From Acidobacteriota bacterium (GTDB lineage Bacteria; Actinomycetota; Acidimicrobiia; Spongiisociales; UBA5794), in contig JADFQA010000005.1 in NCBI GenBank assembly GCA_022562055.1, positions 1 to 64,000 on the forward strand: DNA of 64,000 bases. The letters run 5' to 3'. Position 1 is the stretch's first letter; each line of letters opens with the position of its first letter. Below the pieces are notes generated by a model. It saw only the letters and a list, made by a program, of their open reading frames with translations. It made no database searches and was not told where the DNA came from. A program made the position numbers and the translations under genes. This document shows positions 52,456 to 57,598 of this stretch, piece by piece.

Positions 52456-53541
52456 ATGAAGGATTACTACGACATTCTCGGCGTCGCGCGCGACGCTTCG
52501 CCCGACGACATCAAGAGGGCCTTCCGGACGCTGGCACGCGAGTCGCACCCTGACGCCAATCCAGACGATCCGACAGCGGAGGAGAGATTCCGCAAGGTCG
52601 CCGAGGCGTACGAAGTTCTGTCGGATCCGGAGAAGCGTGCTCGTTTTGACCGAGGCGAGGTTATGGGCGCCGCCGATCTGTTCTCGAACTTTGGTGGCCT
52701 CGACGAGATCTTATCCCAGTTCTTTGGGGGACAAGGCTTCGGTGGGATTGGCGGGATCGGTCGACGTACTGAGCGCGGCTCCGACGTTGGTGTGCTGGTT
52801 GATCTCACCTTGGCCGAGTCGTTGCACGGCGTGTCGCGCGACGTGGCGTACGCCGCCCCAACGACATGTGACGTGTGCGAAGGTAGTGGCGCGGCCGAGG
52901 GATCGAGTCTGGTGACATGTGCAACGTGCGCGGGGCGGGGACAGGTGCAGGTGCAACGCGCAACACTGCTCGGCGCAATGCTGACCACTGCTCGGTGTAC
53001 GACCTGCAACGGAAGGGGGAGCACGGTCGAACGACCATGCGACGCGTGTCGAGGGCATGGGCGGACCGACCGGGAACGCACCGTCACCGTTGACGTGCCC
53101 GCGGGCGTCGACAACGGCACCCGTCTCAGGCTGACTAGGCGCGGCGGGGCTGGCGACATCGGGCATCCGCCTGGTGACCTGTACGTTGAGGTGCGTATAG
53201 CCCCCGACGATAGATTCGAACGCAATGGTGCTGATCTCCACCACGAGACCTCACTCAGCTACTCGCAGGCGGTGCTTGGGGCGACAATCACGGTTCCGCT
53301 CGTAGACGGTGAGACCGAGTTGGACATCCCGGGAGGGACCGCGTCGGGGACGGTTTTCCGCATGCAACGCCACGGCATGCCCCGTCTGCGTCGGCGTGGG
53401 CTTGGCGATCTATTCGTGACCGTAACTGTCGACGTCCCCACGGAAGTGTCTGATGACGAGAGGGGCTTGTTGGAGGCCCTTGCGGAACTGCGTGGCGAGA
53501 GCTTGCAGCGTCCCAAGCGACGAAAGCGGCGCTGGTCTTAA
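52456..53541 (+). CDS. dnaJ: Co-chaperone DnaJ
   Basis: 361 residues from ATG 52456. The J-domain has HPD at 31-33. A Gly-rich linker (GGQGFGGIGGIGRR) follows, then four CxxCxGxG zinc motifs (CDVCEGSG, CATCAGRG, CTTCNGRG, CDACRGHG) and the two C-terminal substrate-binding barrels. It stimulates DnaK ATPase and delivers unfolded proteins. It lies directly behind hrcA under probable CIRCE control. This is the DnaJ2 type found with hrcA in actinobacteria, with a first DnaJ usually beside dnaK. Confidence 0.94.
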   Translation: MKDYYDILGVARDASPDDIKRAFRTLARESHPDANPDDPTAEERFRKVAEAYEVLSDPEKRARFDRGEVMGAADLFSNFGGLDEILSQFFGGQGFGGIGGIGRRTERGSDVGVLVDLTLAESLHGVSRDVAYAAPTTCDVCEGSGAAEGSSLVTCATCAGRGQVQVQRATLLGAMLTTARCTTCNGRGSTVERPCDACRGHGRTDRERTVTVDVPAGVDNGTRLRLTRRGGAGDIGHPPGDLYVEVRIAPDDRFERNGADLHHETSLSYSQAVLGATITVPLVDGETELDIPGGTASGTVFRMQRHGMPRLRRRGLGDLFVTVTVDVPTEVSDDERGLLEALAELRGESLQRPKRRKRRWS

Positions 53542-53665
53542 CATCGAGGAACTAGAGCAGTCAGCGTGCTGACCAGTCGGCGAGAATCCCCAGCATGCGA
53601 GCATTTGCGCGCCTATATCCGGGAAATCCCAGAGTCTTGGGGGTTGGCGGCTATTATGGCTGCTA

Positions 53666-53684
53666 CACAGAGCGTTTGTCTGTG
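53666..53684. promoter_or_regulatory. 6-bp palindrome before the bldD homologue
   Basis: CACAGA and TCTGTG with a seven-base spacer, 27 bases before the start, flanked by GCTAC on both sides. It is a candidate operator, possibly for autoregulation. Confidence 0.4.
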
Positions 53685-53711
53685 CTACTCTGCGTACTCT
53701 GAGGAGTGAAA

Positions 53712-54185
53712 GTGTTGACATACAACGAACAGGTGGGTGCTCGATTGCGATCCATTCGCAAGCAGCGTGGCCTGTCCCTGCAAGATGTCCAGCGGGTCTC
53801 TGAACAGGAATTCAAGGCCGCTGTGCTTGGTGCTTACGAACGCGGCGAGCGCAGCTTGTCTTTGCCTCGTCTGCGTCGGCTCGCAGCGTTCTACAACGTA
53901 CCGATGGTGCAGTTTCTGCCGACCGAGGATGGCATCGACCATACTGCCATCCGCGCCGCCGTCACGGGTGTCACGATCGACCTCAACAAACTGGATGATC
54001 TGAATGGCGAGGACTCCGTCGTGGTTGAGCGATTCTTGAGAGGTATCCAATCTCTTCGCCAGGACTACAACGGCAAAGTGCTCACGATTCGCGCTGACGA
54101 CATTCGAACGCTGGCTCTCATGATGAACAAATCGCCGGCTGATTTTTCGGACCATCTCGCCGAGCTTGGCGTGATGGCGACCTAA
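53712..54185 (+). CDS. bldD: BldD-like developmental regulator with c-di-GMP signature
   Basis: 157 residues from GTG 53712, five bases after GAGGAG (GTG 53706 overlaps that site; TTG 53715 is possible). An N-terminal HTH_3 domain (LRSIRKQRGLSLQDVQ, then YERGERSLSLPRLRRLA) is followed by a C-terminal domain containing RQDYNGKVLTIRADDIRTL. This keeps the RxD-X8-RxxD signature (Arg116, Asp118, Arg127, Asp130) that binds tetrameric c-di-GMP in Streptomyces BldD. BldD there holds sporulation genes off. The role in this organism is inferred. A palindrome lies upstream. Confidence 0.87.
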   Translation: MLTYNEQVGARLRSIRKQRGLSLQDVQRVSEQEFKAAVLGAYERGERSLSLPRLRRLAAFYNVPMVQFLPTEDGIDHTAIRAAVTGVTIDLNKLDDLNGEDSVVVERFLRGIQSLRQDYNGKVLTIRADDIRTLALMMNKSPADFSDHLAELGVMAT

Positions 54186-54284: not shown

Positions 54285-55322
54285 GTGGCGAAGCGCTTTT
54301 CTATCCGCAACTCGGAGTTCAAACGTTCGGTGGCATCGTCCGTAGATAGTCGGTCTACATTGCTTGTAACGAGCAATCAGCTCATGGTGGACCTGCTCGG
54401 CGAGCATGATGCGTGGCTTCGTGTTGTCGAGAAGGCGTTTCCACTCGTGACCGTTGTGGCGCGGGGTAACCAGATCACGATGACCGGGCCTGGGCGCGAT
54501 GTCGATCGGTCACGAACCGCGCTTGACGAGTTGTTGATCTTGGTCCAGGAGGGGCAGGGACTTTCCGCCGATCGCGTAGAACGACTCGTGGACCTTGTCC
54601 TTCGTGACGTGCCGTCGCCGTCGGGCATTTTTACCGAAACGATCCGGGTCGGGCGCGGCAAGACAGTCAGGCCGAAAACTCTGGGCCAAAAGAAATACGT
54701 CGATGCGGTGCGCAGCAATACGATGGTTTTCTGCATCGGACCGGCTGGTTCGGGAAAGACGTACCTTGCCATGGCATGTGCCATCGAGGCATTCCTGACC
54801 GGTACCGTTCGTCGATTGATTCTGGCGAGACCCGCGGTCGAGGCTGGCGAGCGGCTCGGGTTCCTTCCCGGCGATCTCGCTGCGAAAATCGATCCGTACA
54901 TGCGTCCGCTGTACGACGCAATGTTTGAGATGCTCGGTCCGGACGAGACACACGACTTGATGGAGAGGGGGACGATCGAGGTTGCGCCGCTGGCGTATAT
55001 GCGGGGCCGGACACTCAACGATGCCTTTGTTGTGCTCGACGAAGCGCAAAATACGACACCTGAGCAGATGAAGATGTTTCTCACCAGGCTGGGATTCAAC
55101 TCCAAGATGGTGATCACCGGGGACGTGACTCAGACCGACCTCACGCACAACCGACCGTCGGGTTTGCGGATCGTTGAACAGATTCTCACCGACGTTGAGG
55201 GTGTGCATTTCGCCCACCTAACTGCCAAGGACGTCGTCCGCAACCGAATCGTCGCGGAGATCGTCGATGCATACGAGCAGCATGAGGAGAAGAGATTCTC
55301 GCGTCGGGACAAGTCGCGATGA
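54285..55322 (+). CDS. phoH: PhoH-like ATPase
   Basis: 345 residues from GTG 54285. An N-terminal KH-like region (LVTSNQLMVDLLGEHDA and VARGNQITMTG) precedes the PhoH P-loop ATPase with Walker A GPAGSGKT at 152-159 and Walker B VVLDEAQN. The family is linked with ribosome and RNA maintenance, as its usual neighbour is ybeY. The stop overlaps pgpH as ATGA. Confidence 0.93.
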   Translation: MAKRFSIRNSEFKRSVASSVDSRSTLLVTSNQLMVDLLGEHDAWLRVVEKAFPLVTVVARGNQITMTGPGRDVDRSRTALDELLILVQEGQGLSADRVERLVDLVLRDVPSPSGIFTETIRVGRGKTVRPKTLGQKKYVDAVRSNTMVFCIGPAGSGKTYLAMACAIEAFLTGTVRRLILARPAVEAGERLGFLPGDLAAKIDPYMRPLYDAMFEMLGPDETHDLMERGTIEVAPLAYMRGRTLNDAFVVLDEAQNTTPEQMKMFLTRLGFNSKMVITGDVTQTDLTHNRPSGLRIVEQILTDVEGVHFAHLTAKDVVRNRIVAEIVDAYEQHEEKRFSRRDKSR

Positions 55323-57598
55323 ACCGTATCGCGACTCGACCCGTGCTTTTGAACTTGTTGACAGTTGCGGTGACGGTCGTCGTGGTGTCTCTTGTGCTGG
55401 TGGCAGGTCGCGGCGGTGTCGAGCCAATCGTCGAATTGGTTGTTGGCCAGCCTTCTCCGCAGGAGTTTGTTGCAACAAGTTTTGTCGAAATCACAGACAA
55501 GGCGGAGACCGATGCGCAACGGGTGCTCGCCAGGATCAATACAAAGAGCGTGTTTGCACGCAGCGCCATCGTTGAAAGCGCACAGCAGGTGAGTGTCGAT
55601 GCGCTCTTTGACGAAATCGAAACGGTTGCACCGGACATCGTCTTTCCACCCGACGTGACGACTACCACAACAGAGCCGCCCGCCGAAGAAGCGACCACGA
55701 CCGCCACGACTGTTGTCGAAGAAGGCTCGACCACGTCGACCTCGATAACGACAACCACGACAATCGCTCCGACGACGACCACTACTACTGAGCCTCCTCC
55801 CGATGTGGTTGAGCAAACCGAAGTAGTGGCCGCAAAGTTCCGCACGTTTGAGGACGCGATCACAATCTTGGTTCGGCTCCACAACGCCGATATCGAACGA
55901 ACCATCGTCGGGGAGAGCCAGGGATTTCTCATCCGTGTAAAGGGAGCCGTCGATAGATCTCTCGATCAAGCCTTTCAGGCGGAGATTAGATCGCAGTTGG
56001 ATCTGACAGATGCCCGGAACGAGATTCTTGAGGATCCGCCCGTACTTTTCATTACCGGGCAGACAGACGAGGAGCGCAGAGACACCTCGTTTGCGATTGC
56101 TCGCATTGTCGAAGGGTCGCTCGTTGTCAACTTCTTTGTCGATGACGACGCGACGGCTGCGGCCGAGCAAGAGGCGATCGACGCAGTCGAAGAGACAGTG
56201 ATTCAGTTCTTTCCTGGCGTCCCGATCGTCGGGCTCAGCGAACCGATAACCGAGGTCCAACTCGAGGCTATCAACATGCTGCGGCTGAACGTCGTCGAGG
56301 TCGGCGCAGATCGGGTGGCGGTTGCGCTCCTTGGTGCGATTGCGGTCGTCCTTGCAGCGTTCTTCCTGTGGCGACTTGCGCCGACGCAGTGGTCGAAGCC
56401 GAAGCACTTTGCGCTTCTTGGAATTCTCCTGGTGTTGGCAGCGGCCGCGTCACGCGTGCCGGGCGTGGTGACCGGTGACGAAATCGCTTTGGGATTCCTC
56501 CTGCCGGCGATGATGTTTGGGTACATGGCTGCCATCCTGTATGACCCGAGAACGGCTGTGTTGATGGCCCTTCCAATGGCGACGTTTACCGCGGTCAGCA
56601 CGGGAGACGTTGCGTTGACGCTCTACGCTGCCGTTGCGACTGTGGTGCCGGTTGCGTTTGTCTCCGCAGCTTCATCCCGTCGCGATCTCCGGTTGGCGAT
56701 TGCGTTGGCAACCGTGGTTCTCTCCCCAATCGGATTTGCCACTTCCTGGCTGTTCTACGGCATTGAACACCGATGGCAAGGCGCCCTGTTTGCGTTCCTC
56801 GGGGGTGTCGGCGCGGGCCTCGTTGCTCAAGGTCTCGTATCTTTCTTCGAAACCTTGTTCCGTGTCACGACGACCCTCACGCTGCTTGACCTCACGGATC
56901 GAAACCATCCTGCGCTGCGGCTCATCGAAGAGAAGGCTCCGGGGACGTTCAACCACTCGATTCTGGTGGGGACGCTCGCCGGCAGGGCGGCTCGCGAGAT
57001 TGGCGCCAACGCTCTCCTCGCGCAAGCCGCCGCGTATTACCACGACCTCGGGAAGACAGAAAACCCGCGCTTCTTCATTGAGAACCAATTCGGTGTTTCC
57101 AACCCGCACGATCGGCTTGATCCGGTCGCTTCGGCAGCGATCATCCGCCGTCACGTGTCTGATGGTCTGAGACTTGCACGCGAGTACCGGTTACCCGACG
57201 AGATTGTGGACGCGATCCGGATGCATCACGGCTCGGGTCTTATGCGTTACTTCTACCACGAGGCCATTGCAGCCGATGAAAACGTCGATCCGGCGCTGTT
57301 TCGGCATGAGGGTGTTAAGCCGCGGCGGAAGGAATTGGCGATTCTGATGATATGTGACGCAATCGAGGGAGCTTCTCGCGCTGCCGCAACGCAGCAAGAC
57401 CCGACGGAGGATTCGCTCACAGCCCTCGTTGACACGATCGTCGGGGAGAAGCTCGACGACGGCCAACTCGAAGAGTCAGATCTGACGTTCGGTGAACTCA
57501 CCCGTGTGAAGCGTGCCATTGTCGAGGCACTCGTCGGTTATTACCACACGCGGGTGCCATACCCGGGCTTCCCCGGCAACCCGGCGGAGTCCACGTGA
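55319..57598 (+). CDS. pgpH: 7TM-HD phosphodiesterase, PgpH type
   Basis: 759 residues from ATG 55319. An N-terminal membrane helix (LNLLTVAVTVVVVSLVLV) precedes an extracellular 7TMR-HDED-like domain interrupted by a Thr/Glu/Pro-rich stretch at about 113-160. Seven membrane helices follow (about 335-515), then a cytoplasmic HD domain with FNHSILVGTLAGRAARE and YYHDLGK (His575-Asp576). In Listeria PgpH hydrolyses the second messenger c-di-AMP. It is encoded in the conserved phoH-pgpH-ybeY order. Substrate here is inferred from the family. Confidence 0.88.
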   Translation: MNRIATRPVLLNLLTVAVTVVVVSLVLVAGRGGVEPIVELVVGQPSPQEFVATSFVEITDKAETDAQRVLARINTKSVFARSAIVESAQQVSVDALFDEIETVAPDIVFPPDVTTTTTEPPAEEATTTATTVVEEGSTTSTSITTTTTIAPTTTTTTEPPPDVVEQTEVVAAKFRTFEDAITILVRLHNADIERTIVGESQGFLIRVKGAVDRSLDQAFQAEIRSQLDLTDARNEILEDPPVLFITGQTDEERRDTSFAIARIVEGSLVVNFFVDDDATAAAEQEAIDAVEETVIQFFPGVPIVGLSEPITEVQLEAINMLRLNVVEVGADRVAVALLGAIAVVLAAFFLWRLAPTQWSKPKHFALLGILLVLAAAASRVPGVVTGDEIALGFLLPAMMFGYMAAILYDPRTAVLMALPMATFTAVSTGDVALTLYAAVATVVPVAFVSAASSRRDLRLAIALATVVLSPIGFATSWLFYGIEHRWQGALFAFLGGVGAGLVAQGLVSFFETLFRVTTTLTLLDLTDRNHPALRLIEEKAPGTFNHSILVGTLAGRAAREIGANALLAQAAAYYHDLGKTENPRFFIENQFGVSNPHDRLDPVASAAIIRRHVSDGLRLAREYRLPDEIVDAIRMHHGSGLMRYFYHEAIAADENVDPALFRHEGVKPRRKELAILMICDAIEGASRAAATQQDPTEDSLTALVDTIVGEKLDDGQLEESDLTFGELTRVKRAIVEALVGYYHTRVPYPGFPGNPAEST

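Follow-up and report, generated by a model that had tools for sequence, protein, structure and literature searches.

BldD is the repressor by which Streptomyces senses the messenger c-di-GMP, and a gene for a BldD-like protein in a bacterium without known sporulation raises the question of what such a protein reads and controls there. The window analysed here, a stretch of 64,000 nucleotides, contains such a gene, for which the first-pass annotation had claimed homology to BldD and an intact c-di-GMP signature and had proposed an older role for c-di-GMP/BldD control. We consider it likely that the gene encodes an XRE repressor of the BldD family that depends on c-di-GMP, regulates its own expression and belongs to a lineage linked to dnaJ and phoH.

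The reading frame, on the + strand, is open from two alternative GTG start codons, 53706 and 53712, to 54185. We prefer GTG 53712 because the sequence GAGGAG lies at normal Shine-Dalgarno spacing from it, because the start codons of relatives match and because GTG 53706 overlaps the Shine-Dalgarno sequence. The gene has the following features:

53701..53706, + strand, Shine-Dalgarno GAGGAG, from direct reading
53712..54185, + strand, bldD-like gene of 157 aa with a GTG start, from the ORF reading, the Shine-Dalgarno spacing and the starts of relatives
53745..53909, + strand, XRE/HTH_3 DNA-binding domain, residues 12-66, Pfam HTH_3 2.7e-9, aligned to 2ewt
53970..54176, + strand, BldD-like C-terminal domain PF21179, Pfam 78 bits against a cut-off of 27

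The occurrence of an XRE HTH and PF21179 in one short protein places the product in the BldD-like family. The claimed HTH match to BldD is borne out by a Pfam HTH_3 score of 37 bits and by phmmer comparison with PDB sequences, which aligned the protein to the BldD DNA-binding domain 2ewt at 2e-16; the same comparison matched the BldD C-terminal domains 2mc4, 4oaz and 5khd at about 1e-11. Judged by these matches to solved domains, the fold is settled and the gene is a genuine BldD relative, with an XRE-HTH and a BldD-like C-terminal domain. The protein scored 150 bits with the NCBIfam equivalog model for BldD, NF050110, under the cut-off of 250.

Alignment with characterised BldD proteins, which the first-pass annotation had proposed as a check, also located the c-di-GMP signature. 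The segment RQDYNGKVLTIRADD of the window protein aligns without gaps under RGDYNGKVLSIRQDD of the solved BldD domains, with RQD-YNGKVLTI-RADD under RGD-YNGKVLSI-RQDD, so that RxD-X8-RxxD is intact and in register. With the start at GTG 53712, the residue numbers given previously are exact, and the codons are R116 at 54057-59, D118 at 54063-65, R127 at 54090-92 and D130 at 54099-101. The positions relevant to ligand binding are:

54057..54065, + strand, motif 1, Arg116-Gln-Asp118, equivalent to R114-x-D116 of Streptomyces BldD
54090..54101, + strand, motif 2, Arg127-Ala-Asp-Asp130, equivalent to R125-x-x-D128 of Streptomyces BldD
53967..53969, + strand, Gly where Streptomyces BldD has the phosphate contact Lys84, from the alignment, with the contact taken from PMC4151990

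In Streptomyces BldD, guanine is read by R114, D116, R125 and D128, the phosphates are contacted by K84 and R130, and further contacts to c-di-GMP are made by I110, N118 and S123 (PMC4151990, Cell 2014). Seven of these nine named contacts are identical in the window protein, including all four guanine-reading residues together with N118, I110 and R130; S123T is a conservative change, and K84 is lost to Gly. Across 94 sequences, R114 and R125 are conserved in 100%, D128 in 99%, D116, I110 and the S123 to Thr change each in 95%, and N118 in 91%. Position 84 is Lys or Arg in all homologues aligned in the 2014 paper (PMC4151990); K84 is missing in most class sequences, as in the window protein, and its loss is the sole real chemical reservation about c-di-GMP binding.

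The motif table comprised 96 loci, among them six named relatives, one duplicating G083, and in addition the S. coelicolor reference. Leaving out that duplicate and the reference, all four motif residues are present in 88 of 95 sequences (class loci and named relatives), which argues that the match is not due to chance, and the sequences without the full motif are mostly second or divergent copies. In the phylum draw, the motif is present in most of 40 sequences; among these are some of Streptomyces type with a C-terminal domain almost the same as in the solved protein. From these residues, we predict that the C-terminal domain of the window protein binds c-di-GMP.

We then compared the protein with its relatives by phylogeny and gene order, for which the neighbours of the gene are:

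52456..53541, + strand, dnaJ, upstream neighbour in the conserved order dnaJ-(rsmE)-bldD-phoH, from Pfam and synteny
54285..55322, + strand, phoH, downstream neighbour, from Pfam and synteny

A careful, unrooted tree of 70 rows contained 50 dnaJ-linked BldDs, from the window, the class and, in eight cases, other classes, and a branch supported at 100/99 separates all of them from the rest. Beyond that branch lie the BldDs of Streptomyces type, along with second copies found in three class genomes, and a wider quick tree gives the same split. The order dnaJ-(rsmE)-bldD-phoH, whole or partial, occurs at most class loci and at some loci of other classes; dnaJ, rsmE and phoH were absent from the flank of about 1 kb examined at the Streptomyces-type genes L204 and L206-L208. 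By phylogeny and synteny, the window protein is thus a BldD-family member of a dnaJ/phoH-linked sister lineage; to call it the Streptomyces BldD orthologue would be unwarranted. The original designation as a BldD homologue holds for the BldD-like family and fails for the Streptomyces BldD clade. The first-pass annotation had stated that a tree placing the protein outside the BldD clade would count against it, and the tree found here goes half that way, with the protein inside the BldD-like family, yet split from Streptomyces BldD at 100/99.

Strict orthology to Streptomyces BldD, together with a developmental regulon of that kind, would explain the two shared domains, the shared motif and the largely conserved HTH residues. 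We nevertheless regard this reading as very improbable, given the 100/99 split that sets the dnaJ-linked lineage apart from Streptomyces BldD and the second class copies, a dnaJ-(rsmE)-bldD-phoH locus whose neighbours were not found within about 1 kb of Streptomyces-type genes, the equivalog score under its cut-off, Gly instead of Lys/Arg at position 84 and Thr at position 123, and a search for a regulon that gave no clear excess over the control (see below).

The second BldD copies of some class genomes, L097 (G110), L098 (G114) and L066 (G006), which fall on the Streptomyces side of the split, carry RGD in place of RQD, which suggests that an old duplication, or a transfer, took place. Two genes downstream of bldD, in the order phoH - 7TM-HD - ybeY, the window encodes a PgpH-like 7TM-HD protein (55319-57598, + strand), probably a c-di-AMP phosphodiesterase.

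A search of the host genome assembly (2.93 Mb, 83 contigs) for diguanylate cyclases, as had been suggested, gave four GGDEF matches: two canonical proteins, one degenerate protein and one response regulator with GGDDF. The canonical cyclases, identified by sequence, are a GGDEF-EAL protein (RESDSVARLGGDEF) and a GGDEF-HD protein (RSMDVACRTGGDEF), each with RxxD plus GGDEF. In the GGDEF-HD protein (L003 856-2547, - strand), the GGDEF and the I-site are intact and the HD metal-binding pair reads AD. The degenerate, half-length GGDEF (GHxGGDDF) response regulator (L005 1024-2037) is of a type that recurs across the order (homologues L108-L110, L113-L116, L119 and L120) and is the only GGDEF-like protein detected in some genomes (G013, G070). 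The host showed no SsgA-type sporulation protein, a weak result since the control genomes gave no match either.

We examined how often the two domains occur together. Among 198 class genomes, drawn evenly, the BldD domain was present in 112, all of which also had a GGDEF match; 22 of the remainder had GGDEF only and 64 had neither domain. In a phylum draw of 396 genomes, 115 contained the BldD domain, and GGDEF was found in 115/115 of those versus 357/396 overall. The hypergeometric probabilities of this co-occurrence are 2e-33 (class draw) and 7e-7 (phylum draw), values that apply to related genomes, which are not independent samples; because of this relatedness, and because many genomes with neither domain are streamlined, we take the co-occurrence only as consistent with dependence of BldD on c-di-GMP. 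The window gene is therefore ordinary within its class, probably the Acidimicrobiia; the family is widespread, and a member in this genome is to be expected. The nearest named relatives are MAGs classified under Actinomycetota or Acidimicrobiaceae.

These distributions bear on the possibility that the protein is an XRE repressor no longer responsive to c-di-GMP, with motif residues that persist for folding or dimerisation. Such a loss of response would agree with the absence of K84 from most class sequences and with G070, a genome 96% complete with an intact BldD motif, yet with only the degenerate GGDDF protein detected. We find it improbable, however, as the guanine-reading residues and N118, I110 and R130 are all present in the window protein and neither draw contained a BldD-bearing genome without a GGDEF match. 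The motif residues can moreover be lost, because degenerate copies without D116 or N118 exist. A protein that still responds to c-di-GMP remains the reading we prefer.

Some genomes of family f3, in the order of the host, contain a degenerate BldD (L050, L052, L061), in which GSS replaces the F/Y-N-G loop and, in L061, D116 is lost. BldD was undetected in other f3 genomes and in the drawn f7 genomes; for GGDEF, several f3 genomes gave weak matches only and f7 gave none. This pattern is an apparent decay of the BldD/c-di-GMP pathway within the order.

The published BldD box is TNAC-N5-GTNA, and in the crystallised complex the DNA of this box has CTGC in its centre (PMC4151990). Upstream of the window gene, we identified the following elements:

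53652..53657, + strand, candidate -10 TATTAT of the bldD promoter, inferred, with TAnnAT in 13/16 aligned family promoters
53665..53677, no strand assigned, putative operator box A, ACACAGAGCGTTT, which contains the BldD-box core AC-N5-GT, its position conserved in the family
53685..53697, no strand assigned, putative operator box B, CTACTCTGCGTAC, with core AC-N5-GT and, as in the crystallised complex, CTGC at its centre, supported by family conservation

Each of the two host boxes matches only 4/6 fixed BldD-box positions. Within 100 bp before bldD, the full box occurs 13 times in 93 loci, versus 0-3 per 100-bp bin elsewhere, and the tight core AC-N-SWS-N-GT 38 times in 93 loci, versus typically 0-8. 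The density of the tight core is 0.41 per locus nearest bldD, 0.26 in the next 100 bp and about 0.04 in most other bins. BldD-box-like sites thus cluster at bldD promoters throughout the class, a new observation. An operator model built from 14 promoters, the host's among them, had its best match in the host genome at 53663-53698, the bldD promoter.

Promoters of family f1, to which the host belongs, and of the named relatives share one arrangement: a TAnnAT -10, then box A, 11-12 bp and an inverted box B; in f1, box A lies about at the expected transcription start. Because this inverted pair sits immediately after the -10, we predict autorepression. Several other families have a single palindrome that fits the published box (TCAC-N5-GTGA) and that in some of them apparently lies upstream of the -10, the positions of which are inferred.

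The inverted pair could instead form a 5' mRNA hairpin, or be the operator of another factor, with no binding of BldD. In favour of this, the arms covary in family f1, with 17 both-side-change cells versus 8.8 in shuffles and a covariation score of 0.389 versus 0.228 (0/500 shuffles as high), and the spacer between them is conserved also at a CAP-domain gene in three congeners. We think this explanation unlikely, since the single palindrome of other families fits the published box and in some apparently lies outside the transcript, which favours a DNA operator; in addition, the host bldD leader is predicted to fold without pairing the two arms with each other, and no Rfam family matched the leaders up to E=1.

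Mapping of the box beyond the bldD promoter, also suggested with the first annotation, gave a different outcome from the class-wide enrichment before bldD. Tight boxes numbered 42 across the host genome versus 37 for a reversed-pattern control, with no clear excess, and paired boxes 17 versus 26, with no consistent excess in a search of 13 genomes. No large BldD-box regulon was thus detectable by tight-box or paired-box patterns, and the regulon is either small or made up of boxes too degenerate for the patterns used. For the two host cyclases, box-like sites were limited to an isolated 5-of-6 site about 55 bp ahead of the apparent GGDEF-HD operon (L003) and a full box at some distance upstream of the GGDEF-EAL gene (L002). 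Conserved boxes ahead of cyclase genes, which Streptomyces has, were looked for and not found: the two host sites are not conserved in homologues and were treated as chance.

With the operator profile, the promoter of a secreted CAP-domain gene was the second match in the host and in the congener G217 and the best in the congener G216. The promoter is orthologous in all three species, but the E-values are weak (0.02-0.13), and we therefore treat it only as a lead. The CAP operator windows are 80-83% identical across the three species, whereas identity over most of the flanking intergenic sequence is 13-53%. The site, an inverted operator resembling that of bldD, reads ACnGAGAGT-N13-ACTYTCGGT (G000 contig C2 24387-24417, L192; congeners L193 and L189), and the spacer between its arms is the one conserved in the three congeners.

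In the mechanism we favour, c-di-GMP would be made by the two canonical GGDEF enzymes of the host and bound, as a bridging oligomer, by RQD-X8-RADD on two C-terminal domains. The bridged BldD dimer would occupy the AC-N5-GT boxes and, at its own promoter, cover the transcription start and switch bldD off, in negative autoregulation. The lineage may thereby retain BldD as a general c-di-GMP readout in bacteria without known sporulation. What the sequence itself establishes is the family, the motif, the cyclases and the conserved operator-like sites, and from these we predict ligand binding and its stoichiometry, box occupancy and the direction of control.

A broader proposal, which we hold only tentatively and believe more apt to fail than to stand, is that an ancient dnaJ/phoH-linked BldD predating Streptomyces development is a small-regulon, c-di-GMP-dependent autorepressor in non-sporulating Acidimicrobiia, also controlling at least one envelope gene, that of the secreted CAP-domain protein, via the same inverted operator, and that the huge Streptomyces regulon was a later expansion.

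Compared with Streptomyces BldD (4oaz, 5khd, 2ewt; PMC4151990), the window protein shares the XRE-HTH plus PF21179 architecture, RxD-X8-RxxD with equal spacing, I110, N118 and R130, GGDEF enzymes in the genome and, ahead of its own gene, a core resembling the BldD box; in S. coelicolor, bldD itself is a BldD target according to the passages of a 2013 review drawn on here (PMC4255298). Unlike it, the window protein lies on a separate, fully supported branch and in a dnaJ-phoH locus, has RQD instead of RGD, Gly for K84 and Thr for S123, scores under the NCBIfam equivalog cut-off and has no detectable large regulon.

In open full-text literature, which mostly does not include subscription papers, BldD in Acidimicrobi- was found only in PMC4255298 and PMC8325347. 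The former (FEMS Microbiol Rev, 2013), in the same passages, names a convincing bldD orthologue in Acidimicrobium (A. ferrooxidans), of the same probable class as the window gene, infers that very early actinobacteria already possessed bldD and that it was repeatedly lost, and suggests non-developmental roles in simpler actinomycetes; there, no signal for BldD was then known and c-di-GMP residues are not discussed. Conservation of these residues together with GGDEF enzymes in sporulating actinomycetes was reported in 2014 (PMC4151990). The proposed older role for c-di-GMP/BldD control accordingly stands in part: the motif is present on both sides of the split and is therefore older than the Streptomyces branch, but the idea is not new, an early origin having been stated in those 2013 passages. 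What this analysis usefully adds is the placement in a sister lineage, the absence of the K84 contact and the prediction of an autoregulatory operator.

A parallel in argument is RsiG-WhiG, for which the evolutionary case was made and tested in 2021 (PMC8325347): a c-di-GMP switch of Streptomyces sporulation is older and controls type IV pili in unicellular actinobacteria. That idea has experimental support, and the protein and motif are unrelated to BldD. Should c-di-GMP binding and self-repression hold for the dnaJ/phoH-linked lineage, the BldD/c-di-GMP switch would likewise predate actinobacterial sporulation, and the small-genome Acidimicrobiia would offer a simple system for finding its first target, comparable to RsiG-WhiG in Rubrobacter.
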